A DNA stretch of 11,384 bases from an uncultured bacterium (GTDB lineage: Bacteria > Patescibacteriota > Saccharimonadia > Saccharimonadales > Saccharimonadaceae): assembly GCA_903889015.1 (NCBI GenBank), contig CAISVS010000131.1, forward strand, positions 1 to 11,384. Reading direction: 5' to 3'. The position numbers and the translations under genes were made by a program. The notes beneath the pieces were generated by a model. That model was not told where the DNA came from, made no database searches, and saw only the letters and a list, made by a program, of their open reading frames with translations. The number at the start of each line of letters is the position of its first letter. Within the stretch, counting starts at the first letter, position 1. Positions 1,375 to 11,384 of the stretch are shown here, in pieces.

Positions 1375-1403
1375 TTGAAAATATAACATTAGCGGTTTAT
1401 ACT
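1375..1403 (+). promoter_or_regulatory. Sigma-70 promoter of the pilin array (leaderless)
   Basis: TTGAAA at 1375-1380, a 17-base spacer, and TATACT at 1398-1403. The predicted start near 1410 abuts the ATG at 1411, so pilin gene 1 should be translated from a leaderless mRNA. The same -35/17/-10/ATG geometry recurs at 6013-6049. It lies back to back with the kinase promoter on the other strand. Confidence 0.75.
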
Positions 1404-1460
1404 GAATCATATGCATAACGGTGCTGAATCTGTGGGCAGTTCAAACACATTAGTCTATTC
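1375..1460 (+). repeat. Block A, copy 1: promoter plus leader-peptide repeat
   Basis: A promoter-and-leader unit repeated at 6013-6098. From 1408 to 1449 the two copies are identical over 42 bases (coding MHNGAESVGSSNT); then come a 2-base mismatch and nine more identical bases. Upstream, the -35 and -10 hexamers match exactly while the spacer has diverged. A degenerate third copy is at 4745-4776. In this copy the leader joins straight to the pilin core. Confidence 0.85.
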
Positions 1461-2463
1461 GCGTGGCTTTACAATAGTCGAACTGCTAGTTGTCATTGTC
1501 GTCATTGGTATTTTAGCCGCCATAACAATCGTCAGCTATACGGGTATAACCAACAAGGCTACGATTGCTTCAATTCAATCCGACCTGACAAATGCTTCAA
1601 ATATTTTTAAAATGGATCAAGTTGTGAATGGTAAGTATCCGGCTACATTGGCCGACGCAAATAGCAGTAAGGGGATTACGTCGTGTGCTGGTACGACAAC
1701 TTGTTTTTATGCCGTTAATAACAGTCTGACACCTCAAGGATTTTGTATGGCTGTCACCAAAAATTTAACAGCTTATCGAATCACCAATGACAGCGCGCCG
1801 ACAGTAGGTGATTGTCAAAATTATGGGCAGCTGGTCAGTTTGGACGCTGGCAATACGTCGTCGTATTCTGGTAGTGGAACGGCATGGACTGACTTAAGCG
1901 GAAATGGTAACCATGGGACGTTAGTCAATGGAACAGGTTATATCAATCCCGGTATTTATCCAAATGATGCAAATTTAGTATTTGATGGTACTAACGATGG
2001 TGTTTCTTTGCCTGCTATTACACCTAACAAAGAAGTAACTTTTAATGCATTTATTTACCTCAACGGCGCAAATACGAATTACGGAACAATATTCTCAAAT
2101 TACGGGGCGGGTGGCAATGCGTACTATATTGGAACGTATCTGAATTTGCCGTCATCAATACAGGTATACTTTAACACCTCATTAGTCGCCACGATTACCT
2201 CGTTACCGATGAATACATGGATGATGTTGACGGTGACGCATAATGGCACTACAGCCATTGGTTACATTAATGCAGTACAGCAGTTTTCAGCCGCTAGCAC
2301 ATTGATTTCGTCGACTAATGTTACGGGTGTTGGATATGACGTTGCGCGTTCGAATTATCCATTCAAAGGTAGTATCGCAACAGCGCAAATTTACAACCGA
2401 GCTTTGCCGGCGGCTGAAATATTGCAGAACTTTAATGCGCTAAAAGGTCGTTATGGCTTGTAA
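1411..2463 (+). CDS. Type IV pilin-like protein 1 with C-terminal LamG-like domain
   Basis: Prepilin-like surface protein of 350 residues. A 19-residue leader ending SRG is followed by the class III processing site G|FTIVE, with Phe as mature residue 1 and Glu5, then the hydrophobic helix LLVVIVVIGILAAITIVSYTG. The prepilin peptidase would cleave before Phe20 in the membrane. A short pilin globular part (about 50-138) has Cys92/98 and Cys112/135, likely two disulfides. From about 140, LVSLDAGN, TAWTDLSGNGNHGTL, LVFDGTNDGVSL, NTWMMLTVTHNG, GYINAVQQF and KGSIATAQIYNRAL mark a concanavalin/LamG-fold (Laminin_G_3-like) domain, which commonly binds carbohydrate or protein. It is the first gene of a five-gene array with its own leaderless promoter. 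Its last codons contain the ATG of gene 2. A role in adhesion is inferred. Confidence 0.88.
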   Translation: MHNGAESVGSSNTLVYSRGFTIVELLVVIVVIGILAAITIVSYTGITNKATIASIQSDLTNASNIFKMDQVVNGKYPATLADANSSKGITSCAGTTTCFYAVNNSLTPQGFCMAVTKNLTAYRITNDSAPTVGDCQNYGQLVSLDAGNTSSYSGSGTAWTDLSGNGNHGTLVNGTGYINPGIYPNDANLVFDGTNDGVSLPAITPNKEVTFNAFIYLNGANTNYGTIFSNYGAGGNAYYIGTYLNLPSSIQVYFNTSLVATITSLPMNTWMMLTVTHNGTTAIGYINAVQQFSAASTLISSTNVTGVGYDVARSNYPFKGSIATAQIYNRALPAAEILQNFNALKGRYGL

Positions 2464-3520
2464 TCGAGATTCTACCGCCTACAATCTACTACCTACTACC
2501 TACCAACGGGGCTTTACAATAGTTGAACTATTGGTTGTTATCGTCGTCATTGGTATTCTCGCTGCGATAACCATCGTCAGCTACACTGGTATTTCGCAAC
2601 GTGCCACAGTTGCCTCAATCCAGTCCGACCTAACTAATGCATCTAATATCTTTAAGATGGACCAAGTTACAAACAGTGGCTACCCATCAGATTTAACATC
2701 AGCTAACAATAACAAAGGTATCCCATCATGCACTAGCACAACAGCTTGTTTTTATGCAGTAAATAACAGCATTACGCCACAAGGATTTTGTTTGGATGTT
2801 ACTAAAAACTCAACAACTTACAAAATTACTAATGACAGCGCGCCGACGTTAGGTGATTGTAGAAGTTATGGACTGGTTGTCAGCGTAGATGCTGGTAATG
2901 TGATTTCATATCCTTCACCATTTACGGGCACAGCATGGAATGATTTAAGCGGTAACGGGCTTAACGGCACTTTATATAATAATGTGGCTTATAATTCAGC
3001 TAGTGGTGGCATTCTAGTTTTTGATGGCAATGATGATTATGTTGACTTGGGCGACAATGCAAGTTTTAGAAATTTATCCAACATTACATTATCTGCTTGG
3101 GTTAATATAGATAATTTAGTTGATGCTTGGAATTATATCTTGGGAAAATCGGGATTTTGGGGCAATAATGAGTTTGGATTTTATACGAGTGGTGCTAAAT
3201 TGGGAGTGTCAATTGATGGTGATGTCGGTTCGCGTGCTTGGGTTGAATATGTGTACTCGGCCAATATCGGACAGTGGCATTATTTGACGACGACTTATGA
3301 CGGATCGAATGTTAAATTGTATATTGATGGAGTTTTGATTGGCTCAAGTGCAACTTCCGGTAAAGTTGGCAATAATACTGATCATCTTTATGTTGGTCGT
3401 GCCACGAATTTATATTACACCAAACAGTCAGTCGGTAGTGTTCAGTTGTTTAATCGATCGATGCCAATAACTGAAATTCAGCAGATTTTTGACAACACAA
3501 AGGGTCGTTATGGTCTATAA
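2453..3520 (+). CDS. Type IV pilin-like protein 2 with C-terminal LamG-like domain
   Basis: 355 residues. The leader MACNRDSTAYNLLPTTYQRG (20 aa) is encoded by the heptamer-repeat block B, then G|FTIVELLVVIVVIG opens the pilin helix. The pilin part keeps the four-cysteine layout of gene 1 (Cys93/99 and 113/136) and the ITNDSAPTLGDC motif. The C-terminal half (about 141-355) is LamG-like: VVSVDAGN, TAWNDLSGNGLNGTL, LVFDGNDDYVDLG, ITLSAWVNI, QWHYLTTTYDGSNVKLYIDGVLIG, GSVQLFNRSMPITEIQ. The ATG overlaps the last 11 bases of gene 1, so translation is probably coupled; no Shine-Dalgarno site was found. The N-terminal helix protein is identical to that of gene 1, but many codons differ synonymously, so this is an old duplicate held by selection. 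Confidence 0.88.
   Translation: MACNRDSTAYNLLPTTYQRGFTIVELLVVIVVIGILAAITIVSYTGISQRATVASIQSDLTNASNIFKMDQVTNSGYPSDLTSANNNKGIPSCTSTTACFYAVNNSITPQGFCLDVTKNSTTYKITNDSAPTLGDCRSYGLVVSVDAGNVISYPSPFTGTAWNDLSGNGLNGTLYNNVAYNSASGGILVFDGNDDYVDLGDNASFRNLSNITLSAWVNIDNLVDAWNYILGKSGFWGNNEFGFYTSGAKLGVSIDGDVGSRAWVEYVYSANIGQWHYLTTTYDGSNVKLYIDGVLIGSSATSGKVGNNTDHLYVGRATNLYYTKQSVGSVQLFNRSMPITEIQQIFDNTKGRYGL
2464..2505 (+). repeat. Block B, copy 1: heptanucleotide tandem repeat in pilin 2 leader
   Basis: After TCGAGATTCTAC the sequence falls into 7-base units of the form TACCTAC (CGCCTAC, AATCTAC, TACCTAC, TACCTAC). Related blocks at 4798-4835 and 6109-6152 share the CCGARATTCTAC-type lead-in. Each lies inside coding sequence, so gain or loss of one 7-base unit shifts the frame. 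Confidence 0.75.
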
Positions 3521-4703
3521 AAATAACGGCTTTACGATCGTCGAATTACTTGTCGTCATTGTCGTAATTGGCATCTTGGCCGCTATAACCATCGTCAGTT
3601 ATACTGGTATAACCAATAAAGCTACGATTGCTTCAGTTCAATCCGACCTAGACAGTGCCAGTCGCAAACTTAGACTTTATTATACTTTGTATGGCTCTTA
3701 TCCCACTGCTATGGACGTCAACAACTGTCCTGCCGCTCCAACAGCCGACACTAATTATTGTTTAAAAAGCAGTAACGGCAGCACCTTTTCCTATGGTTCA
3801 ACCACTCCATCAACATTTAGATTAAATAACATTAAAAACACAACCAGATATACTACTACCGAAAGTTCCAGTCCGGCACCGTTAACCCAAGTGGTTGCTA
3901 GTGGTGGCAACACGGTTACTGACTTAAACGGTTATCGTATTCATACCTTTACTTCGACTGGCGCTTTTACAGTTACAAGCGGTGATAGTGTTGAGGTGCT
4001 AGTTGTTGGCGGTGGTGGTGGCGGAGGCGGTGGATATTACGCTGGAGGTGGTGGAGGTGGTGGGTTGATATATAATTCTGCATTTGCAATATCTAGTCAG
4101 AGTTATACCGTTACAGTCGGGGTTGGCGGTACTGCTGGAGTTGCCCAGACTTCTCATGGTGGCAATGGTGGTAACTCAATATTTTCGTCATTAACTGCTG
4201 TTGGCGGTGGTGGTGGCGGTTCGACTTATTCTCAAGCACCGACTGCCGGAGGAAGCGGTGGCGGTGGCGGACCTTTAGCTGGCAGTGGCGATAATGGCGG
4301 GCAGGCTGGTGCAGTTGGTACTGCAGGCCAAGGGAATGTTGGTGGAACGGCTGGGTTTAATGCTGGCGGTGGCGGCGGGGCTGGTGAAGCTGGTGTTAAC
4401 GGGTCAGGTACTTCACCTTATGGCCGCGGTGGAGATGGGCTAGCGTACAGTATTTCAGGCGCATCCGCATATTATGCTGGTGGTGGCGGCGGAGCTTGGG
4501 ATGCAAATAATGGTACACCACAGCTGGTGTATGGCGGGCTTGGTGGTGGCGGTAATGCCGCTACCTATAGCGTAGCGGCAACTGCGGGCGCTGCAAATAC
4601 AGGAGGTGGTGGTGGCGGCGGTCAACATGCGACTTTTCCGGCTGGTTTTTCAGGTGCAGCTGGTGGTTCTGGAGTTGTAATTATTAGGTATCTGCTGCCA
4701 TGA
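3510..4703 (+). CDS. Type IV pilin-like protein 3 with C-terminal glycine-rich domain
   Basis: 397 residues from the ATG at 3510; an in-frame TTG at 3489 would add seven. 3510 is chosen because it reproduces the exact 11-base overlap seen between genes 1 and 2. The leader MVYKNNG is minimal, then G|FTIVELLVVIVVIG at residue 8. The pilin body has Cys73 and Cys84 and differs from genes 1/2 (RKLRLYYTLYGSYP). From about 140, GYRIHTFTSTGAFTV and VEVLVVGGGGGGGGGYY begin a long glycine-rich region with repeated GGGG blocks alternating with short hydrophobic strands, ending SGVVIIRYLLP. This matches the glycine-rich domains of phage tail adhesins and CPR surface proteins, which can form polyglycine II helical sandwiches. 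Only the pilin N-terminus is shared with genes 1 and 2. The stop overlaps the next start (ATGA). Confidence 0.85.
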   Translation: MVYKNNGFTIVELLVVIVVIGILAAITIVSYTGITNKATIASVQSDLDSASRKLRLYYTLYGSYPTAMDVNNCPAAPTADTNYCLKSSNGSTFSYGSTTPSTFRLNNIKNTTRYTTTESSSPAPLTQVVASGGNTVTDLNGYRIHTFTSTGAFTVTSGDSVEVLVVGGGGGGGGGYYAGGGGGGGLIYNSAFAISSQSYTVTVGVGGTAGVAQTSHGGNGGNSIFSSLTAVGGGGGGSTYSQAPTAGGSGGGGGPLAGSGDNGGQAGAVGTAGQGNVGGTAGFNAGGGGGAGEAGVNGSGTSPYGRGGDGLAYSISGASAYYAGGGGGAWDANNGTPQLVYGGLGGGGNAATYSVAATAGAANTGGGGGGGQHATFPAGFSGAAGGSGVVIIRYLLP

Positions 4704-6016
4704 TAAAGCATATAATTTCGCATATATTTAGATCTATATTTAAAGATGCACAATCTGTTGATAGTTCAAACACACCGGTTTCTTCGAATCGCCCCAAAAA
4801 CCGAAATTCTACTACCTATAACCTACTACCTACCAAAAAGGTTTTAACCCATGCTTCGCCAAGGTTACGCAGGATAAAGCTAGCTTCGCCAGCCTTTACA
4901 ATCGTCGAACTCCTAGTCGTCATCGTCGTCATCGGCGTCCTAGCCGCCATAACTATCGTTAGTTACACTGGCATCTCCCAAAAAGCCACCGTTGCCTCAT
5001 TTCAATCTGACCTAAATAACGCCTCTAGGTTATTAAAGATGGACCAGGTTATAAACGGCGGTTATCCCGCATCGACAAGCCAGCTTAATAACAACAAGGG
5101 GCTAGTAGCAAGTAATGGGGCTACATTTGCTAGTTATGAATATAATAATACCGTCATTCCTCAAACTTTCTGTTTAACACTTAAAAAAGACACAACATAT
5201 TATCGTATTACTAATGATTCAATTCCTACATCCGGTGCTTGTATGGGATTATATGCGACTGGCGGCACTATTACAGATAGTGGTGGTTATCGAATAAATA
5301 CATTCACAACCAGTGGCACATTCACTGTTAATAGTGGCATTAGTAATGTTGAGGTGCTAGTTGTTGCTGGCGGAGGCGGCGGCGCAGCTATGACGGGTGG
5401 TGGCGGTGGCGCTGGTGGGGTGCTGTATAATGCAACTCATGCTGTTTCGACGCAGTCATATGTAGTTACAGTTGGCGCTGGTGGTGCTGGTCAGATTGGT
5501 GCGTCTAATCCTGGGTATGGCTCTGATGGTCAGAATAGTGTTTTTGATAATTTAACCGCAATTGGTGGCGGTGGTGGTGCAACAAATGCCGGCAATGGCA
5601 GGCTAGGTGGTTCTGGTGGAGGATCTGGTCACAGTAATACGACAGGTGGTGCTGGTACTGCTGGGCAAGGCTATAGCGGTAGCGGTGGCGCAACTGGGGT
5701 GCCAAATTACGGTGCAGGTGGTGGTGGCGGAGCTGGTGCTGTTGGCGGTGTGCCAACTAATACAAATGGTGGTAATGGTGGTATAGGAGTTTCATATTCA
5801 ATTTCTGGATCATCAGCTTATTATGCTGGCGGTGGTGGTGGCGGAACATATTTAGGTGGTACCCCAGGTAATGGTGGCTTAGGTGGCGGCGGTAATTCAC
5901 CAGCCGGCAACGCAACAGCAAATACTGGTGGCGGTGGCGGTGGACAGATTAATAACGGTTCAAACGCTGGTGCCGGTGGTTCAGGTATTGTAATCGTACG
6001 CTACCTTCTTCCTTGA
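4700..6016 (+). CDS. Type IV pilin-like protein 4 with C-terminal glycine-rich domain and very long leader
   Basis: 438 residues. The start ATG overlaps the gene 3 stop as ATGA. The leader is 65 residues, unusually long for a prepilin, and contains all three leader blocks in frame: A-like (AQSVDSSNTP), B (NRNSTTYNLLPT) and C (THASPRLRRIKLASPA). The processing site is A|FTIVE rather than G|F; Ala at -1 is tolerated by some prepilin peptidases. The mature protein has the pilin helix, Cys158 and Cys181, then from about 195 GYRINTFTTSGTFTV, VEVLVVAGGGGG and a glycine-rich domain ending SGIVIVRYLLP, closely parallel to gene 3. No other credible in-frame start exists between 4700 and the pilin helix. 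The stop overlaps a TTG (TTGA) that is also the -35 of an internal promoter. Confidence 0.83.
   Translation: MIKHIISHIFRSIFKDAQSVDSSNTPVSSNRPKNRNSTTYNLLPTKKVLTHASPRLRRIKLASPAFTIVELLVVIVVIGVLAAITIVSYTGISQKATVASFQSDLNNASRLLKMDQVINGGYPASTSQLNNNKGLVASNGATFASYEYNNTVIPQTFCLTLKKDTTYYRITNDSIPTSGACMGLYATGGTITDSGGYRINTFTTSGTFTVNSGISNVEVLVVAGGGGGAAMTGGGGGAGGVLYNATHAVSTQSYVVTVGAGGAGQIGASNPGYGSDGQNSVFDNLTAIGGGGGATNAGNGRLGGSGGGSGHSNTTGGAGTAGQGYSGSGGATGVPNYGAGGGGGAGAVGGVPTNTNGGNGGIGVSYSISGSSAYYAGGGGGGTYLGGTPGNGGLGGGGNSPAGNATANTGGGGGGQINNGSNAGAGGSGIVIVRYLLP
4745..4776 (+). repeat. Block A, degenerate copy in pilin 4 leader
   Basis: GATGCACAATCTGTTGATAG and the following TTCAAACACACC align with the 1425-1450 and 6062-6089 copies at roughly three-quarters identity. 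The promoter hexamers of the other copies are not preserved here. It is read in frame with the pilin core. Confidence 0.6.
4798..4835 (+). repeat. Block B, copy 2: heptanucleotide repeat in pilin 4 leader
   Basis: AAACCGAAATTCTAC is followed by TACCTAT, AACCTAC and TACCTAC, three 7-base units. It translates as NRNSTTYNLLPT and lies between blocks A and C. Confidence 0.7.
4848..4898 (+). repeat. Block C, copy 1: SPRLRRIKLASPA element before the pilin helix
   Basis: An insert of about 50 bases containing a 30-base-spaced direct repeat of GCTTCGCC (4853-4860 and 4883-4890) and the palindrome AGCTAGCT. The second copy at 6167-6217 differs at three positions over about 50 bases. It supplies the basic residues RLRRIK just before the membrane helix and replaces the normal G|F junction with A|F. 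Confidence 0.75.
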
Positions 6017-6041
6017 AAACCAATCATATCACGCTTATACT
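6013..6041 (+). promoter_or_regulatory. Internal promoter of the pilin array (block A copy)
   Basis: TTGAAA at 6013-6018, a 17-base spacer, and TATACT at 6036-6041: the same hexamers and spacing as the array's first promoter. The predicted start near 6048 is one base before the ATG at 6049. The -35 overlaps the gene 4 stop codon. Exact retention of both hexamers while the spacer has drifted suggests selection for promoter function. Confidence 0.65.
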
Positions 6042-6098
6042 TAAACATATGCATAACGGTGCTGAATCTGTGGGCAGTTCAAACACACCAGTCTATTC
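6013..6098 (+). repeat. Block A, copy 2: promoter plus leader-peptide repeat
   Basis: Second near-identical copy of 1375-1460. It has the same promoter hexamers, 42 identical bases from 6046 to 6087, a 2-base difference at 6088-6089, then AGTCTATTC. Here the leader is not in frame with the pilin that follows. Confidence 0.85.
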
Positions 6099-6195
6099 AA
6101 AATGTCCAAAAACCGAGATTCTACTACCTACTATCTACTACCTACTATCTACAAAAAAGGCTTCACCCATTCTTCGCCAAAGCTACGCAGGATAA
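6049..6195 (+). CDS. Short leader ORF from block A, out of frame with pilin 5
   Basis: Reads MHNGAESVGSSNTPVYSKCPK, then TEILLPTIYYLLSTKKASP, and stops at 6195 (48 codons). An in-frame TTG at 6013 overlapping the gene 4 stop (TTGA) would extend it to 60 codons and corresponds by alignment to the start of gene 4. The first 13 residues equal the leader of pilin 1, but the heptamer and element C blocks are read in a different frame from pilin 5, so no pilin helix is made. It could be a frameshifted (OFF) leader of gene 5, a translated coupling ORF, or a relic. Adding one base modulo 3, such as one 7-base repeat unit, would fuse it to pilin 5. Confidence 0.4.
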   Translation: MHNGAESVGSSNTPVYSKCPKTEILLPTIYYLLSTKKASPILRQSYAG

Positions 6196-7205
6196 AGCTA
6201 GCTTCGCCAGCCTTTACTATCGTTGAACTATTAGTTGTCATCGTCGTCATTGGCGTCCTAGCCGCCATAACAATCGTCAGCTATACTGGCATATCCAACA
6301 AAGCCACAGTCGCTTCATTAACGTCAGATTTAGATAACGCATCAAGATTATTAAAGTTAGACCAGATCGTGAACAGTGGCTATCCGGCGACATTAGCGCT
6401 TGCGAACAATAGTAAGGGTTTAACAGCCAGCAACGGAGCGAATTATTATTACTCAGTCAACAATAGTGTAAGCCCACAAGCATTTTGCTTGAACGAGGTA
6501 AAGGGGACGACTAGTTACAAGATTACTAACGATTCGGCGCCAGTGGCGGGCGATTGTCAAGGTTACGGACTGGTCCTTAGCCTTGACGCTGGTGACAACG
6601 CATCTTACCCTGGCAGTGGCACAACTTGGAATGATATTAGTGGTAAAAATAATAATGCGACATTGAATAACGTTACATACAACAGCGCCGGCGCTAAAAG
6701 TATGACATTTAATGGTACAACTGGCTATGTTAGCATTCCCAGTAGCGCTAATTACGCCTACGGAACAACAGATTTTACTTGGGAATTATGGATTAGTGGA
6801 AGTAGCTTTGTGTCAGGAAATAATTATTTGATCGATCATGGTTCAAATGGCGGAACGCTAGCTTATCAAGGTGGTAAATTATTATATTACAACCCAACAT
6901 CAGGAACGGGAGGCAGTTTGTATACGGTTGGTTTTGGATCGAGTTTCTCGTTAGGTAATTGGTATCATGTGGTTGCAACTCGGCGTATCGGAATAACATA
7001 CTTGTATCTAAATGGAATTCTGTCAACATCAGCGACTGATGCTCGAAATTACACCGCACAATCTATTACTCTTGGTAATTATGGTGGTGGCGGTAGTTAC
7101 TATTGGAACGGATCAATTGCATATGTACGCTTATATAACCGTTCTTTTACGGCTGATGAAGTTTTGCAGAGTTTTAATGATCGTAAAACTCGATTTGGTT
7201 TGTGA
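6102..7205 (+). CDS. Type IV pilin-like protein 5 with C-terminal LamG-like domain
   Basis: 367 residues from the ATG at 6102, which lies inside the frameshifted block A leader and has no Shine-Dalgarno site. Leader of 37 residues: NRDSTTYYLLPTIYKK (block B), then GFTHSSPKLRRIKLASPA (block C), then A|FTIVELLVVIVVIG. The GFT at residues 20-22 looks like a disrupted ancestral processing site. The pilin part has Cys129/Cys152 and ITNDSAPVAGDC. The LamG-like domain (about 157-367) shows LVLSLDAGDNASYPGSGTTWNDISG, TTGYVSIPSS, FTWELWISGSS, NWYHVVATRRIGITYLYLNG and GSIAYVRLYNRSFTADEV. It ends RFGL, encoded CGATTTGGTTTGTGA, so the embedded ATG of the other LamG tails is lost, as expected for the last gene of the array. 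Expression in the present frame is uncertain. Confidence 0.82.
   Translation: MSKNRDSTTYYLLPTIYKKGFTHSSPKLRRIKLASPAFTIVELLVVIVVIGVLAAITIVSYTGISNKATVASLTSDLDNASRLLKLDQIVNSGYPATLALANNSKGLTASNGANYYYSVNNSVSPQAFCLNEVKGTTSYKITNDSAPVAGDCQGYGLVLSLDAGDNASYPGSGTTWNDISGKNNNATLNNVTYNSAGAKSMTFNGTTGYVSIPSSANYAYGTTDFTWELWISGSSFVSGNNYLIDHGSNGGTLAYQGGKLLYYNPTSGTGGSLYTVGFGSSFSLGNWYHVVATRRIGITYLYLNGILSTSATDARNYTAQSITLGNYGGGGSYYWNGSIAYVRLYNRSFTADEVLQSFNDRKTRFGL
6109..6152 (+). repeat. Block B, copy 3: heptanucleotide repeat in pilin 5 leader
   Basis: AAAACCGAGATTCTAC is followed by TACCTAC, TATCTAC, TACCTAC and TATCTAC, four clean 7-base units, then a six-A run. This is the most regular of the three heptamer tracts. 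It sits between the block A leader ORF and the pilin core in gene 5, where the two are in different frames. Confidence 0.8.
6167..6217 (+). repeat. Block C, copy 2: SPKLRRIKLASPA element before the pilin helix
   Basis: Near-identical to 4848-4898. It is bounded by GGCTTCAC (6159-6166) and GCCTTTAC (6210-6217), an imperfect 8-base duplication 51 bases apart. The element could therefore have entered the GGCTTTAC that encodes the normal G-F-T junction and stayed in frame. Confidence 0.7.
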
Positions 7206-7206
7206 A

Positions 7207-7431
7207 TTACTTAAATAATTTATCGGTATCGATTTTTTCAACACCAAACAAATAAATAATCTCTAAAATACCAACGGTATTAATCAGTGATAACGCGACA
7301 AACCAATTTAATTTGTGGTGTCTGGCGGCATGCCACAGGGCAGCAGCCTTCCAATAGATTGACCATACAACTAGAACTAATATTAATAATATTGCCCAGT
7401 CTGGTAGTAATGAGATTTCGGTACGATACAT
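7207..7431 (-). CDS. Small DUF5652-type membrane protein
   Basis: 74 residues with two predicted membrane helices (about 11-32, DWAILLILVLVVWSIYWKAAAL, and 42-63, NWFVALSLINTVGILEIIYLFG) joined by a basic loop WHAARHHKL. The WKAAALWHAARHHKLNWFVALSLINTVGILEIIYLF pattern, split here by topology, fits the DUF5652 family, which is common in Patescibacteria and has no established function. The N-terminus is short and the C-terminus (EKIDTDKLFK) charged. The start is firm: GGAGGT lies five bases before the ATG, and a perfect extended -10 lies upstream. The gene is convergent with the pilin array, one base separating the two stop codons. I see no terminator between them, so antisense read-through is possible. 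Confidence 0.8.
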   Translation of the reverse strand: MYRTEISLLPDWAILLILVLVVWSIYWKAAALWHAARHHKLNWFVALSLINTVGILEIIYLFGVEKIDTDKLFK

Positions 7432-7436
7432 ATTTT

Positions 7437-7464
7437 ACCTCCGTTTTATATACTAATTATATCA
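7437..7464 (-). promoter_or_regulatory. Extended -10 promoter and Shine-Dalgarno site of the DUF5652-type gene
   Basis: On the minus strand TGA-TATAAT (7464-7456) is followed by GGAGGT (7442-7437) and the ATG at 7431. It directly follows the pyrH stop codon (7471-7473) in the same orientation. The gene therefore has its own promoter and a conventional leader of about 18 nt. Confidence 0.75.
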
Positions 7465-7470
7465 CTATTT

Positions 7471-8193
7471 TTATTTGTGATTACCATCAATCATAGTGCC
7501 GAAAGAGTAGTCGCCGTCAATAATATCAGTTAATTTATGTAGGTCATTAATGTCAAATACAAAGATAGGAATTTCGGATTTTTCACACATTGCAAATGCT
7601 GTTCGGTCCATAACTTCCAGTCGCTGATCAAGTGCTTGCTGATATGTCAGTTCGGAATATTTTTTGGCTGAACTGTTTTTGCGGGGGTCTGAATCATAAA
7701 CGCCGTCAGTCGTGCTGGCTTTGAAAATAATCTCACATTGCAGTTCACTAGCAAATTGAGCGACAGCTGAATCAGTTGAAAAATTTGGCATTCCAAGGCC
7801 ACCAGCCACAATTACCATCCGTCCATGGCCTAAATGATGTCGGCCTTTGGTGCGAATATACGGTTCGGCAATTTGCGGAATGCTGATTGATGTCATTAGT
7901 CTGGTGTCGGTTGCGCCATTGCGAACTAACGCTTCACGTAGTCCGATACCGTTAATAATTGTCGCCATCATACCCATCGAATCGGCTTCGGTATGATCAA
8001 CGCTACTGTCAGCCTGACGGCCACGAAAAATGTTGCCACCACCGACAACAACAGCTAGTTCAATTTTAGTTTGTTTTTGGACCTGTATCAGATGTTTTGC
8101 AACATCATTATATCTGTCAAAGTTAATATTTTCGCTTTTATCTTGAAACAATTCACCGCTCAGTTTAAGTATCGCGCGTTTAATATTTGCCAT
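7471..8193 (-). CDS. pyrH: UMP kinase (uridylate kinase)
   Basis: Cytosolic amino-acid-kinase-fold enzyme that phosphorylates UMP to UDP with ATP, in pyrimidine nucleotide synthesis. All 240 residues are present, the usual length. Seen: KLSGE at 10-14, VVVGGGNIFRGR at 48-59, DSMGMMATIINGIGL at 71-85, IPQIAEPY at 105-112, GGLGMPNFSTDSAVAQFA at 131-148 (uridine and phosphate binding) and KASTTDGVYDSDPRKN at 158-173 (ATP side). The C-terminal MDRTAFAMC and PIFVFDIND also match. The ATG at 8193 is supported by homology from MANIKRAILKLSGE and by a promoter two bases upstream. Bacterial pyrH often sits between tsf and frr; neither is adjacent here, and the gene appears to be transcribed alone. Confidence 0.96.
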   Translation of the reverse strand: MANIKRAILKLSGELFQDKSENINFDRYNDVAKHLIQVQKQTKIELAVVVGGGNIFRGRQADSSVDHTEADSMGMMATIINGIGLREALVRNGATDTRLMTSISIPQIAEPYIRTKGRHHLGHGRMVIVAGGLGMPNFSTDSAVAQFASELQCEIIFKASTTDGVYDSDPRKNSSAKKYSELTYQQALDQRLEVMDRTAFAMCEKSEIPIFVFDINDLHKLTDIIDGDYSFGTMIDGNHK

Positions 8194-8201
8194 TACCTAA
8201 A

Positions 8202-8230
8202 AGTATATTGGTTTATCATCCCATAGTCAA
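8202..8230 (-). promoter_or_regulatory. Sigma-70 promoter of pyrH (leaderless)
   Basis: Minus strand TTGACT (8230-8225), a 17-base spacer and TATACT (8207-8202), one mismatch in each hexamer. The predicted start near 8195 is two bases before the ATG at 8193, so the mRNA has essentially no leader. Confidence 0.75.
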
Positions 8231-8240
8231 TTTTTACCTA

Positions 8241-8276
8241 CTTCAATAATTTGTCCGGTCGGATAAATTATTGAAG
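8241..8276. repeat. 16-bp inverted repeat upstream of pyrH promoter
   Basis: Arms CTTCAATAATTTGTCC and GGATAAATTATTGAAG around the loop GGTC, pairing throughout with one G-T on the plus strand. No T-run follows on either strand, so it is not a standard terminator. It sits ten bases beyond the -35 of pyrH in a divergent spacer, a fitting place for an operator, or it may be part of an unrecognised RNA. Confidence 0.7.
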
Positions 8277-8344
8277 CAACAACTCATCCAGGTTTCGATT
8301 CTGGAAAACAGATAGAGTCCATTTGTTGAAATAGAAAGTTGTAA

Positions 8345-8366
8345 TTTTTGCTCGGCCGAGCAAAAA
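8345..8366. repeat. Perfect 22-bp palindrome between pyrH and trmH
   Basis: TTTTTGCTCGG and CCGAGCAAAAA form an uninterrupted dyad with no spacer. It lies 51 bases before the trmH -10. A dimeric repressor or activator site is the simplest reading; as RNA it would need a small GGCC loop. Confidence 0.7.
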
Positions 8367-8416
8367 GTGCACCAAATAGTTTTTTGCACGGATTATCCTT
8401 ACAAAGATAGATAAGA

Positions 8417-8422
8417 TATAAT
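8417..8422 (+). promoter_or_regulatory. -10 of trmH (leaderless)
   Basis: A consensus TATAAT whose expected start point is the A of the ATG at 8429. The -35 is poor: the best candidate, TTATCC at 8393-8398, has an 18-base spacer. Activation from the upstream palindromes is conceivable. Confidence 0.6.
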
Positions 8423-8428
8423 AAAGTT

Positions 8429-9049
8429 ATGAATGAACAGGTGAATGAAGTTGTTGTTGGCGTTGGGGCACATCCGAAACCTTGGCCGACTGATGCCAAG
8501 TATGATTTAGATTTGCTGAAAAACGGTGACAAGCGTAATGTACTTGATAAATATCGCTATTGGACGCTGGAGGCAATTAAGGCTGATTTGGATGACAACA
8601 GAACGTCACTGCATATTGCTATTGAAAATTGGCAACACGATTTTAATATCGGCACGATTGTGCGCACGGCGAACGCTTTTAATGTTGAATCGGTTCATAT
8701 TATCGGTCGTCGTCATTGGAATCGCCGTGGCGCCATGGTAACTGACAGATATATGAATATAGTTAATCATTCAACCGTCAATGATTTTGTTGAATGTATG
8801 AAGTCGGATAATCGTCAAATTATTGCGATTGATATCGTGGCAGGTGCTGTTCCATTATCTGAATCATCTTTGCCTGAACGAGCAGTGCTAGTATTTGGTG
8901 GTGAAGGTCCAGGATTAAGTGATGAAATGCAAAAATCAGCCGAAAAAATCGTTATGATAGAACAATTTGGATCGACTCGGTCTGTTAACGTTGGCGTTGC
9001 AGCCGGTATTGCGATGTATGCATGGGTACAGCAGAATATCCTTAAATAG
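8429..9049 (+). CDS. TrmH/SpoU-family RNA 2'-O-methyltransferase
   Basis: 206 residues. The C-terminal SPOUT (alpha/beta-knot) domain shows motif 1 HDFNIGTIVRTANAF at 70-84, motif 2 AVLVFGGEGPGLS at 152-164 and motif 3 IEQFGSTRSVNVGVAAGIAMYAW at 177-199, which together form the SAM-binding knot; Arg79 is the conserved arginine of motif 1. The N-terminus GAHPKPWPTDAKYDLDLL, GDKRNVLDKYRYW resembles actinobacterial and Saccharibacteria TrmH-like proteins rather than classic E. coli TrmH or RlmB. The enzyme would transfer methyl from SAM to a ribose 2'-OH in tRNA or rRNA; the target nucleotide cannot be told from sequence. Its product SAH is the substrate of AhcY at the other end of the window, a general rather than specific link. 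Confidence 0.9.
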   Translation: MNEQVNEVVVGVGAHPKPWPTDAKYDLDLLKNGDKRNVLDKYRYWTLEAIKADLDDNRTSLHIAIENWQHDFNIGTIVRTANAFNVESVHIIGRRHWNRRGAMVTDRYMNIVNHSTVNDFVECMKSDNRQIIAIDIVAGAVPLSESSLPERAVLVFGGEGPGLSDEMQKSAEKIVMIEQFGSTRSVNVGVAAGIAMYAWVQQNILK

Positions 9050-9070
9050 CTATTTGAATATGGCAAATTA

Positions 9071-9091
9071 TTCCAAGGTTGGACCTTGGAA
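9071..9091. repeat. 8-bp hairpin after trmH
   Basis: TTCCAAGG and CCTTGGAA flank the loop TTGGA, 22 bases past the trmH stop. No T-run follows. The loop and right arm contain the TTGGAC that doubles as a -35 for the candidate promoter at 9079-9107. Confidence 0.6.
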
Positions 9092-9107
9092 AGGTAGCGT
9101 ATATAAA
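9079..9107 (+). promoter_or_regulatory. Candidate promoter of a small RNA
   Basis: TTGGAC at 9079-9084, a 17-base spacer and TATAAA at 9102-9107, in the spacer between two convergent genes. Predicted start is near 9114. No ORF follows on the plus strand, only a structured stretch ending in a short T-run. Confidence 0.4.
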
Positions 9108-9111
9108 AAGA

Positions 9112-9172
9112 GACACGAAATAACACCTCTCGAGGACGTTCCTCTAACAGAGAGAAAAAGGTGTCTGTTTTC
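9112..9172. terminator. Nested-stem element between convergent genes: bidirectional terminator or small RNA
   Basis: Outer arms ACACCT (9123-9128) and AGGTGT (9159-9164), or alternatively AGACAC (9111-9116) with GTGTCT (9161-9166). Inside, CTCTC pairs with GAGAG, and GAGGA with TCCTC. On the minus strand the outer stem is followed by CTTTTT, a fair intrinsic terminator for the aminotransferase. On the plus strand a GTTTTC follows, weaker, for trmH. With the promoter-like 9079-9107 it could instead be a roughly 60-nt RNA. Confidence 0.5.
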
Positions 9173-9182
9173 TACCTCGACT

Positions 9183-10484
9183 TTATGAAATTAGGTATTG
9201 ATTAATTGCAGTCGCAATTGTATCAAGGTTGGACTTGAATTTATTGTCATCCATCTCTAGTAACGTGATTCGGAATCCGGGTAGGTCTGAATTAAATCCT
9301 GACAGTGGCACTACGCAAATGCCAGTTGACGCTAACAGGTAATAGACGAATCTTTTGTCTAGGGCAGACGTTGCAACTAGTGGCTCGATGTAGTTTTTTA
9401 TATCTGTACTAATAATTGGTAAGGTTTGGTCAGCATTTAATACTTTGTCATTAAAAACCACGGTTGCGTAAAGTGCACCGTGTGGTCGAACGCAGGTAAT
9501 ACCGCCGATTTTTGAGAATGTTTGATACACCGTTTCGGCTCGTTTGTTATACAAGGCGTTATTTGACTGTAAATAATCATGATAACGTGCATCTGACAAA
9601 ATTTTTGGCAGTGCTTTTTGTGGCAAAGTTGTTGAACAGACTTCCAACATTTTAGAATCAACCAACGATTTAACATAACGAGCAAAAATTGTATCTTTGT
9701 CGGTATTATAAAATTCCACCCAACCACAACGCGATCCGGGCCATGGTACTTCTTTGGATAATCCCTTCATAGCCATGCCTGGTACGTTGCTAATAACATC
9801 AGACAGTGGCGTCATAACAGCGTCGCCATAGACGATGTTGGCATAAATTTCGTCGGCTATGATAAATAGGTCAAATTCGCGGGCGATTGCCACAATTTCG
9901 GTCAAAACTTGTTTAGAATAGACCATTCCAGTTGGATTATCGGGGTTGATTATCAAAATACCACCGATTGACGGGTTGTATTTGACCTTGTTGCGCAGGT
10001 CGTCAAGGTCAGGAATCCAATTATTGGCAGGGTCCAGTCGGTAGGTAATATGTGGCGAGCTAGCATGTGAGGCCTCGGCGGAAGAATGAGTTGAATAGGC
10101 CGGGTTTGGTCCAATTACTCGGACATGTTCGTTTAGATTACTGTAAACTCGAGATATTGCATCACCTAATCCGTTAAAAAACAAAATATCTTCGGCCGTT
10201 ATATGGGCGCCGCCAGCACTGTTGCGCTGATCGGCAATAAATTCACGGGTCGTCGTCAAACCTTTGGTAGGTGAGTATCCAAAAGCTGAATCGTCTGACA
10301 TGACGATATCGCGAACGATTTCTTTGATCCAACTAGGCACACAGTGACCCTTTTGAACGGGATCACCAATATTTTCCCAAGCAATGGTTACCCCCATCTT
10401 TTCTATCCGCTTAGCGACGGCAACAATCTCTCGAATTTCGTAAGTTAATTCATCAGCACCACTGTAAACAATATTATTTCGCAT
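9183..10484 (-). CDS. PLP-dependent class I/II aminotransferase
   Basis: Fold-type I pyridoxal-phosphate aminotransferase, 433 residues. Seen: ENIGDPVQKGH at 37-47 (substrate entrance), FGYSPTKGLTTTREFIADQRN at 68-88 (Gly-rich start of the large domain), LFFNGLGDAI at 101-110, IINPDNPTG at 178-186, ADEIYANIVY at 210-219 with the PLP-nitrogen Asp211, KGLSKEVPWPGSRCGW at 240-255 with the Schiff-base Lys244 and Arg252, and PGFRITLLE at 402-410 with the substrate-carboxylate Arg405. It interconverts an amino acid and its keto acid, with alanine, aspartate or an aromatic amino acid as the likely range; sequence alone does not choose. It is monocistronic, with its own leaderless-looking promoter. 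The catalytic residues are intact. Confidence 0.92.
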   Translation of the reverse strand: MRNNIVYSGADELTYEIREIVAVAKRIEKMGVTIAWENIGDPVQKGHCVPSWIKEIVRDIVMSDDSAFGYSPTKGLTTTREFIADQRNSAGGAHITAEDILFFNGLGDAISRVYSNLNEHVRVIGPNPAYSTHSSAEASHASSPHITYRLDPANNWIPDLDDLRNKVKYNPSIGGILIINPDNPTGMVYSKQVLTEIVAIAREFDLFIIADEIYANIVYGDAVMTPLSDVISNVPGMAMKGLSKEVPWPGSRCGWVEFYNTDKDTIFARYVKSLVDSKMLEVCSTTLPQKALPKILSDARYHDYLQSNNALYNKRAETVYQTFSKIGGITCVRPHGALYATVVFNDKVLNADQTLPIISTDIKNYIEPLVATSALDKRFVYYLLASTGICVVPLSGFNSDLPGFRITLLEMDDNKFKSNLDTIATAINQYLIS

Positions 10485-10491
10485 ATAAATA

Positions 10492-10497
10492 ATAATA
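10492..10497 (-). promoter_or_regulatory. -10 of the aminotransferase gene (leaderless)
   Basis: TATTAT on the minus strand ends seven bases before the ATG at 10484. No convincing -35 is present and the area is AT-rich, so this call rests mainly on its agreement with the spacing at the other starts. Confidence 0.45.
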
Positions 10498-10539
10498 CAC
10501 CATTTTAATTACTAACGTTCCTTAAAAGCATGACTAGTA

Positions 10540-10568
10540 TTGACAAAAACGTTACAATATGCTAATAT
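10540..10568 (+). promoter_or_regulatory. Strong sigma-70 promoter of the 10739 membrane-protein gene
   Basis: Consensus TTGACA at 10540-10545, a 17-base spacer, and TGC-TAATAT (extended -10) ending at 10568. Predicted start is near 10575. The surrounding AGTATTGACAAAA (10536-10548) is repeated exactly at 11172-11184. This is the best promoter in the window by consensus. Confidence 0.8.
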
Positions 10569-10574
10569 GGTCTC

Positions 10575-10738
10575 AAGTCGGTTCACAGGTGGAAATCTGG
10601 ACGACAAGCAGTTTGAAAATCAAATCATTAAAGTACATGTGATCCGTTAAAAGATTATATGTACTTACGGGTGTAAATATTAACACCACCTGCTACCGCA
10701 CAAAACATCGTTTTTGAGCGACTAGTGGGTCAAAATGT
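10575..10738 (+). ncRNA. Structured 5' leader, riboswitch-like or regulatory RNA candidate
   Basis: About 160 nt between the strong promoter and the small membrane-protein gene. Helices seen in order: GTCG/CGAC (10577-10580, 10602-10605) enclosing CAGGT-GGAA-ATCTG (10586-10599, GNRA loop); GTTTG/CAAAT (10611-10625); a 14-bp hairpin (10631-10644 with 10653-10666); GGTGT/ACACC (10670-10687); and CGC-CAAAAC/GTTTTTG-GCG (10697-10720). CAGGTGG (10586-10592) can instead pair with CCACCTG (10686-10692), dissolving the first and fourth hairpins. I do not recognise a known Rfam family. A 27-codon ORF starting at 10567 overlaps the -10, so it would need another promoter. Confidence 0.45.
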
Positions 10739-11056
10739 ATGGAAAACATACAAGGTCAGGGCAATGGCGGAAACAACGGGAATAAGAAAGGTATTTTTAC
10801 CAATCTTAAATCCAGTGTTACGTCTGCCTATCTGTATCTTCTTCCTGCGGCAGTTTGGTGCTCGCTTGTTTTGATTAACATAGCGAAAATCAACGGTGCG
10901 TCGCTGAAGGATGCAGATAAGGCTATGGCTTCGACCGTAGTTATAGGTGTCGCTTTCTTGATAATTTCCAAAATGGAAAAATATCAAGTTAAGCAGATGG
11001 CTATGAATACGATCATGGTCGCAGTCGGTATGATTGCATACTATCTGTTGAAGTAA
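10739..11056 (+). CDS. Small three-helix membrane protein, unknown function
   Basis: 105 residues, not recognised. A polar Gly/Asn-rich N-terminus (MENIQGQGNGGNNGNKKG) is followed by about three hydrophobic segments: 31-49 (YLYLLPAAVWCSLVLINIA), 65-80 (ASTVVIGVAFLIISKM) and 88-104 (MAMNTIMVAVGMIAYYLL). Short basic linkers (LKDADKAM, EKYQVKQ) separate the helices. The start ATG at 10739 has only a weak GTGGGT eight bases upstream; an out-of-frame ATG at 10735 gives just 16 codons. The gene is preceded by a strong promoter and a long structured leader, unlike the housekeeping genes here. The next gene has the same promoter type and also begins with a short polar Asn/Gln-containing segment before a membrane helix. 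A role in secretion or the envelope is possible but unsupported. Confidence 0.75.
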   Translation: MENIQGQGNGGNNGNKKGIFTNLKSSVTSAYLYLLPAAVWCSLVLINIAKINGASLKDADKAMASTVVIGVAFLIISKMEKYQVKQMAMNTIMVAVGMIAYYLLK

Positions 11057-11084
11057 TAATTACTTTCAGAAGTAGGCCACAAAA

Positions 11085-11120
11085 CGTTACGGGAATCTAC
11101 AATGCTAGATTCCCGTAACG
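11085..11120. terminator. 15-bp hairpin after the 10739 gene
   Basis: CGTTACGGGAATCTA pairs perfectly with TAGATTCCCGTAACG around the loop CAATGC, 28 bases past the stop. On the plus strand it is followed by ATAAAA rather than T's. On the minus strand TTTTG follows, so it is a better terminator in that direction although no minus-strand gene enters here. It may act as an mRNA 3'-end stabiliser or a weak terminator for the plus-strand gene. Confidence 0.55.
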
Positions 11121-11175
11121 ATAAAACCCCTACGTGTACTTTAATGAATTGATTTAACTAACAGATGTCAAAGTA

Positions 11176-11204
11176 TTGACAAAATAATGCAAATGTAGTA
11201 TATT
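11176..11204 (+). promoter_or_regulatory. Sigma-70 promoter of the 11239 gene
   Basis: TTGACA at 11176-11181, a 17-base spacer and TATATT at 11199-11204; an overlapping TATTAT at 11201-11206 has a 19-base spacer. Predicted start is near 11211, giving a 28-nt leader before the ATG at 11239. Confidence 0.7.
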
Positions 11205-11238
11205 ATGATTTGATAATCATATTTTGGGTTATTAACTT

Positions 11239-11384
11239 ATGACAAAAAGACAAGGCGAAATATTAGGTAATAATGAGCAAAGCTCAACTGCTGGCATAGT
11301 GCTAACACTAGGCTTGATAGGTGTCACTATTTTTGGCCTAAAAATTCAAAATGGTAACTTTGATAACCCACTAAATAATGTTCA
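11239..11384 (+). CDS. Membrane protein, N-terminal part, cut by window edge
   Basis: 48 complete codons run off the window. A polar start (MTKRQGEILGNNEQSS) is followed by one hydrophobic helix at about 17-35 (TAGIVLTLGLIGVTIFGLKI), then QNGNFDNPLNNV. The topology suggests a single-pass or signal-anchored protein with its C-terminus outside, but the remainder is unseen and no family is recognised. No clear Shine-Dalgarno site is present; the start rests on being the first ATG after a good promoter. Same orientation and promoter type as the 10739 gene, so the two may be functionally linked. Confidence 0.65.
   Translation, partial: MTKRQGEILGNNEQSSTAGIVLTLGLIGVTIFGLKIQNGNFDNPLNNV

Follow-up and report, generated by a model that had tools for sequence, protein, structure and literature searches.

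The DNA analyzed in this study, hereafter the window, is a stretch of 11,384 nucleotides from contig CAISVS010000131.1 of an uncultured saccharibacterium (Saccharimonadaceae) whose genome comprises 671 kb and is 71% complete. An array of five genes for type IV prepilins, all arranged head to tail on the + strand, was confirmed in the window from the list of open reading frames (ORFs). Genes 1 (1411..2463), 2 (2453..3520) and 5 (6102..7205, counted from an in-frame ATG at 6102) encode pilins with a LamG head, and genes 3 (3510..4703) and 4 (4700..6016) encode pilins with a glycine-rich head. For gene 3, the ORF lister gives a TTG start at 3489; the ATG at 3510, which yields the leader MVYKNNG, was used here. 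These two types of C-terminus had been proposed for the same genes in a preliminary description made from the letters alone, and a Pfam profile search bore the proposal out. Laminin_G_3 (PF13385) was above the Pfam cut-off in gene 1 (E-value of 4.7e-16), gene 2 (3.6e-22) and gene 5 (7e-21), as was Gly_rich_2 (PF21722) in gene 3 (1.5e-27) and gene 4 (2.5e-30), so that none of the five C-termini lacks a LamG or glycine-rich match.

The FTIVELLVV-type mature N-terminus that had also been read in all five proteins fits, with I or V at one site. The identities among mature residues 1–40 ranged from 88 to 98% across all ten pairs of the five pilins, which is far beyond chance. At the DNA level, this N-terminal module is marked by direct repeats of 237 nt (four copies) and 122 nt (five copies). 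Moreover, an N_methyl motif after the leader, a glutamate at position +5 and a hydrophobic helix (residues 4–55 in the structure model of gene 5) were all seen. When whole proteins were searched, N_methyl was above the cut-off in genes 1–3 and below it in genes 4 and 5 (16.9 and 17.2 vs 21.2 bits); the sites of genes 4 and 5 scored 21.9 bits in the whole-genome search, which is above the cut-off. The residue at position −1 is Gly in genes 1–3 and Ala in genes 4 and 5 (LASPA followed by FTIVE).

Genes 1 and 2 overlap by 11 nt, genes 2 and 3 by 11 nt, and genes 3 and 4 by 4 nt (ATGA). These overlaps suggest that genes 1–4 form one operon, and gene 5 has a promoter of its own. Sigma70-like promoters with the layout TTGAAA-17 nt-TATACT were read directly ahead of gene 1 (1375..1403, + strand) and gene 5 (6013..6041, + strand), each with an ATG 7 nt downstream. 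This layout would be consistent with leaderless translation. The promoter and its ATG lie in an 87-nt block that is common to genes 1 and 5 (84% identity, repeat D11). In gene 1, the start is in frame with the promoter-proximal ATG. The corresponding ATG of gene 5, at 6049, is in a different frame from its pilin. The operon-like overlaps, the promoter and out-of-frame ATG of gene 5 and the genome-wide set of pilins described below are all additional to the preliminary description.

To compare stalks and heads, 12 pilins of the genome, including the five from the window, were aligned with residues 41–120 taken as the stalk. The stalk of gene 3 was 66% identical to that of a pilin on contig C7 (score of 293) but only 39% identical to that of gene 4 (score of 80). 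Conversely, the head of gene 3 was 58% identical to the head of gene 4 (score of 566), and its score against the C7 pilin, whose head is unrelated, was 27. Similarly, the C7 pilin and a pilin on contig C73 had heads that were 62% identical on stalks that were 38% identical. The nearest neighbors of stalk and head thus differ among the 12 pilins, which shows head swapping between stalks and upholds the proposal that an N-terminal module carries interchangeable heads. The duplication and domain replacement proposed for the array are supported by these mosaic identities, not by the order of the genes, on which the proposal had been built. Pfam recognized four kinds of head joined to this N-terminus across the genome: LamG, Gly_rich_2, Fib_succ_major and RCC1, the last on a pilin of contig C139. 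Two more heads, which by eye we take to be sulfatase-modifying-factor-like and fibrinogen-like, had no Pfam match.

The array ends at a sharp boundary. A region of 87% DNA collinearity with relative G007 spans 7205–11384 and begins at the last base of the gene 5 stop codon (island edge, 7205..7205). No array is present in G007: neither the 18 kb of this genome read around the collinear place nor 14 kb of relative G005 around pyrH yielded a pilin. Gene content at this locus is therefore not constant among relatives. The left end of the window is a contig end, and the right edge of the island is the only one seen.

Two type IV pilus machineries were identified in the genome, one on contig C71 (PilD, PilC, a PilT-like protein, PilB and PilM) and one on contig C100 (a second PilB/PilC/PilM set). 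With two such sets, the five pilins may or may not share the single assembly platform suggested in the preliminary description. The N_methyl profile yielded 26 hits at E ≤ 1, of which 22 were above the cut-off. At E ≤ 0.001, the number of hits ranged from 7 to 29 in each of 18 genomes of the genus, this one included, and from 3 to 9 in each of 12 further genomes from elsewhere in the order. Similarity to solved type IV pilins covers the N-terminus and a portion of the stalk; for instance, gene 5 matched PilA (6xxd) over residues 1–105 with an E-value of 4.7e-6. Of 8000 candidates scored in a homolog search, 1872 had E ≤ 0.001, and among the 120 homologs listed, all eight whose names give an organism are labeled Saccharibacteria or Saccharimonadales. 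Modeled in its mature form (mean pLDDT of 88.6, pTM of 0.80, 50 sequences), gene 5 has a helix at residues 4–55, a small sheet at 77–126 and, from about residue 150, a mostly beta head with a C-terminal helix, an architecture that fits a pilin to which a head has been added.

The window is therefore best read as holding an island, gained or lost, of five head-swapped adhesive minor pilins of a saccharibacterium, to which we assign a probability of about 0.75. Its basis is the observed architecture of the array, its mosaicism, its absence from the collinear relative and the presence of pilus machinery in the genome; assembly into pili and adhesion are predictions from sequence. The fixed N-terminal helix would serve export, processing by PilD and packing into a type IV pilus. 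Each protein would join this helix to a stalk of pilin type and, at the C-terminus, to a head that can be exchanged, either a LamG jelly-roll or a glycine-rich domain. The overlapping genes 1–4 would form a single operon under a leaderless-type promoter, a second copy of which would drive gene 5. New combinations would arise by duplication together with recombination between stalks and heads, and the filament would thereby show different surfaces to host or neighbor cells.

Several points weigh against this reading. The Ala at position −1 and the whole-protein N_methyl scores below the cut-off in genes 4 and 5 render their processing by PilD uncertain. Gene 5 may be silent, as its promoter-proximal ATG is out of frame. 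Finally, in the available part of a study on Nanosynbacter lyticus TM7x, deletions of four other minor pilins left host binding without a significant change (PMC12206443).

The leader of gene 5 also bears on an alternative. The ATG at 6049 opens a frame of 48 codons (6049..6195, + strand) that is out of frame with the pilin, since the codon for the first mature residue (F1) is 164 nt away (2 modulo 3). The in-frame ATG at 6102 has no obvious ribosome-binding site by eye. An array of heptamers follows at 6121..6152 (+ strand; 4.6 units of 7 nt with 88% match, or alternatively 2.4 exact copies of a 14-nt unit), and no in-frame ATG, GTG or TTG occurs between it and F1. Imperfect arrays of the heptamer CTACYNN and of heptamers are also found in the leaders of gene 2 (2472..2503, + strand) and gene 4 (4809..4833, + strand), respectively. 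Thus, gene 5, and perhaps genes 2 and 4, could be contingency genes of a phase-variable family, in which leader repeats set the frame of the ATG, random subsets of heads are displayed and gene 5 is currently OFF. The position of the gene 5 ATG 7 nt past a −10 box, the 7- or 14-nt repeat between it and the pilin and the lack of an in-frame start beyond the array all favor this possibility, as do the CT/GA tracts that would shift the frame at the same place in paralogs of this genome and the genus (see below). It is nevertheless doubtful for the window, because the 7-nt arrays are imperfect and similar CTACYNN arrays lie away from pilins, because the offset of repeat D10 puts the difference between the gene 4 and gene 5 leaders at 5 nt, which is not a whole number of heptamers, and because the in-frame ATG at 6102 could start gene 5. 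A single heptamer step behind the gene 5 frame was not supported. Under a stricter tract rule no tract remained in the window genes, whose repeats are few and mostly imperfect.

A pilin-specific heptamer switch was also considered and rejected, as CTACYNN arrays adjoin non-pilin genes in this genome. Such arrays occur on contigs C30, C114 and C115. Neighbors of the arrays away from pilins look, by eye and without a family search, like a tRNA-Ser gene, tsaD, gltX and an ABC-F gene. CTACYNN arrays were also present in 7 of 29 other genomes, and the reversed pattern in none. The heptamer therefore appears to be a general repeat that may act on the gene 5 frame, not a device specific to pilins. 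Other parts of the leaders are shared as well. A 46-nt module (D10, + strand) found by repeat search is present in gene 1 (1416..1461), gene 4 (4741–4786) and gene 5 (6054–6099), and an extra segment of the gene 4 leader, THASPRLRRIKLASPA (4847..4894, + strand), has its counterpart in gene 5 at 6165–6212. In addition, leader DNA of gene 5 has an 85% match ahead of a LamG-type pilin in relative G008.

That the heads serve non-adhesive roles, such as polysaccharide binding, DNA uptake or enzymatic activity, is unlikely. PF13385 is described as the concanavalin A-like lectin/glucanases superfamily, a description compatible with sugar binding, but the TM7x precedent favors host binding (PMC12206443). 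Among the 12 pilin genes of TM7x, PilX1 (beta jelly-roll-like) and PilX2 (RCC1 propeller) are named, in the text available, as carrying extra C-terminal domains, and deletion of pilX2 lowered host binding from about 10.6 to 4.6% of host cells (PMC12206443). Least probable is a decaying gene family, with an array of duplication relics, a gene 5 whose start marks it as a pseudogene and heads devoid of any special role. The out-of-frame ATG of gene 5 and leaders that are patchworks of repeats would favor it. Against it, the five bodies are open down to their stop codons, the heads exceed the Pfam cut-offs, the gene overlaps are kept and N_methyl hits are numerous throughout the genus (7–29 vs 3–9 elsewhere in the order).

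A pfkB-family kinase gene (381–1361) adjoins the array on the left; its matches listed in other genomes are partial and 21–33% identical, so the kinase may have arrived with the island. On the right, a pyrH-like protein (7474–8193) is 99% identical to its counterpart in G007 (contig C17), where the flanking DNA is 87% identical. Within the genus, its best match in G004 was 41% identical, and no match was found in 7 of the 12 genus genomes searched.

Different from the window genes, some paralogs carry dinucleotide tracts in their leaders. On both strands of this genome, only two tracts of (CT)7 or longer were found, each in a pilin leader (contigs C7 and C73). Across 30 genomes, 13 tracts of (CT)8 or longer were detected, confined to four genomes that are all of the genus. 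All 13 begin within about 130 nt upstream of the F1 codon of a pilin, and one appears as GA when the coding strand is read. The frames were analyzed in 13 genes, comprising 12 of these tracts and one 15-nt tract; the gene on G016:C40 was read separately as the fourteenth. From tract to F1, the pilin frame was open in 13 of 13 genes and stops were found in all 26 other frames. The tract-proximal ATG was in frame in only 1 of the 13 and out of frame in the fourteenth, and in one more gene an upstream ATG was in frame. A TANNNT box ending 6–8 nt ahead of the tract-proximal ATG was present in 9 of 14 genes, compared with 129 of 1809 ATGs (7%) of the same loci, and absent from the other five. Moreover, 9 of the 14 genes lack an in-frame ATG, GTG or TTG between tract and F1, and the possible starts in the remaining five have no ribosome-binding-site match. 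The pilin gene common to two metagenome-assembled genomes, 49-20 and 47-87, has an in-frame ATG with GAGG downstream of its tract; the tract there may thus only alter the leader.

Tracts characterize a minority of pilins; the majority have none. Among loci fetched by the pilin model alone, a tract was found in 4 of 53 leaders of the genus and in none of 15 elsewhere in the order, and similarly in 1 of 30 leaders of 49-20 and 47-87 (two like leaders counted once). An enrichment test found a tract in 13 of 67 leaders for long pilins and in 1 of 25 for shorter ones, vs 8 of 2853 control windows; these figures are biased, because the tracts themselves were the reason for fetching some of the loci. 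Variation of tract length between otherwise identical copies was seen in one case only, that of 49-20 and 47-87, by two CT units.

CT tracts are not restricted to pilins across the phylum. A sample of 379 genomes contained 62 tracts in 45 genomes, 60 of them outside this genome, and a pilin start lay within about 260 nt downstream in 4 of the 60, so an exclusive association was rejected. Iterative tblastn (E-value of 1e-4) placed 34 of the 60 at reverse-transcriptase-like matches, 22 by overlap and the others at distances of up to 25 nt, including those at loci L221, L224, L227, L238, L258, L265, L268 and L277. ORFs at tract loci had an RVT_1 Pfam match in 10 of 10 tested (nine loci), and at L221 the two halves of RVT_1 are in separate ORFs flanking the tract. 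Phase-variable reverse transcriptases may be common in Patescibacteria. A scan of contigs for a CT tract with a prepilin motif returned 17 stretches, which by name belong to Saccharibacteria (2), 'bacterium' bins (11), Omnitrophota (1), Parcubacteria (1) and Planctomycetes (2); one of the Planctomycetes stretches lies within a CT/AG palindrome and may be something else. L143, L151 and L152 (FW104_bin.10) as well as L145 (Omnitrophota STD1_147) have a CT tract at the same leader position, short pilins and a similar leader.

Some of the tract-bearing pilins are also targets of reverse transcriptases, which were found in 7 of the 30 genomes, this one included. Gaps aside, the substitutions between template and variable region fell on template adenines in 16 of 16 cases in G007, 18 of 18 in G016, 12 of 12 in 49-20, 10 of 11 in 47-87 and 18 of 18 in G002. 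The genes matched by template and variable region in G007, G016, 49-20 and 47-87 are CT-tract pilins, and the variable-region gene of G002 lies at a contig end and has no N-terminus. For G012, in which the variable stretch was masked, no full template/variable pair was found. A reverse transcriptase, a template/variable pair and mismatches at template adenines, the hallmarks of a diversity-generating retroelement (DGR), are thus present at the paralogs. No variable region with a template was seen in the five window genes, none of which has a GFRV/GFSV-type end. The single RVT_1 hit of this genome is on contig C6, together with a template-like copy, and not on the contig of the window; the CT-tract pilin of C73 breaks off at a contig end where the variable region should begin. 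The reverse transcriptase and template of C6 and the pilin of C73 could belong to one locus.

Genomes 49-20 and 47-87 share a stretch of 20,292 bp carrying a reverse transcriptase, its template and the pilin. By eye, it also contains a gene that we take to be serine-recombinase-like. This integrative-type element is at G404:C1:133625-153916 and G405:C1:550648-570935. Its first 67 bp contain 10 differences, and the rest differs only by 4 nt, which are two CT units in the pilin leader, and by 13 substitutions in a 98-bp stretch of the variable region of the same gene. The two genomes are not near-clonal strains, an explanation that was rejected because they have 34 and 25 N_methyl hits, respectively, and because the 20-kb element is all they have in common in the 80 kb compared on each side.

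Taken together, it is rather probable that the lineage runs a three-layer diversification of type IV pilus adhesins: head swapping with island turnover, reversible ON/OFF switching by slippage of CT/GA tracts in prepilin leaders with leaderless-type starts, and hypermutation by retroelements that act on the heads of certain switchable genes, with one such gene carried between species on an integrative element. Switching and hypermutation concern relatives and paralogs, not the five window genes. Head variation, switching and hypermutation in this lineage probably serve to vary the cells that are gripped. If true, such a system would equip a host-dependent bacterium, whose genome is no larger than about 1 Mb, with a stochastic repertoire for host recognition. 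Modular and swappable heads, which in paralogs also appear switchable and hypermutable, would explain shifts of host range, and the results name genes with which this can be tested. They also make type IV pilins a concrete protein class targeted by retroelements in Patescibacteria. How episymbiotic Saccharibacteria recognize hosts is described as largely open in the TM7x study, from which headed minor pilins as such are already known (PMC12206443). Within the literature searched, swapping between stalks, pilin leaders with CT tracts and the pairing of such leaders with retroelement-diversified heads seem to be new; in the titles and abstract openings of the matches listed, pilin phase variation in Patescibacteria was not mentioned.

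Parts of this system resemble known ones. The opa genes of Neisseria are contingency loci based on a simple sequence repeat, CTCTT, in signal-peptide codons. Similar to opa, the paralogs of the window genes carry a short tandem repeat in leader codons that can shift the frame. Different from opa, the leader is that of a type IV prepilin, the units are CT or GA, the start is often of leaderless type and the host belongs to Patescibacteria; the window genes themselves have only few, mostly imperfect heptamers. In the antigenic variation of Neisseria pilE/pilS, a conserved pilin N-terminus also bears a variable surface; the exchange seen here involves entire heads belonging to unrelated families.

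A surface protein of the candidate phyla radiation that varies locally through repeats has also been described. It is the product of a hypervariable gene of Gracilibacterium BD1-5, although the nine-nucleotide units of this gene keep the frame and, as far as the available text goes, it encodes a PTD repeat with neither pilin nor frame switching (PMC6851277). The reverse transcriptase, the template and the A-directed mutations in a C-terminal variable region seen in the paralogs are like those of Patescibacteria DGRs, for which the accessible part of a large survey describes a phylum-restricted clade whose targets typically have no recognizable conserved domain (PMC8144416). In the present genomes, type IV pilins were identified as the target, and four of them also have a CT tract in the leader; the window genes are not targets. 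Putative pilin structures have been noted among DUF1566-linked DGR targets (PMC6642488). The closest parallel is TM7x, also a saccharibacterium with two type IV pili, in which a pilin N-terminus is joined to a C-terminal beta-rich head: the RCC1-headed pilin of C139 is reminiscent of PilX2, and those with LamG heads of PilX1 (PMC12206443). Different from what the available text describes for TM7x, however, heads have been exchanged here among stalks, and an island groups five of the headed pilins.

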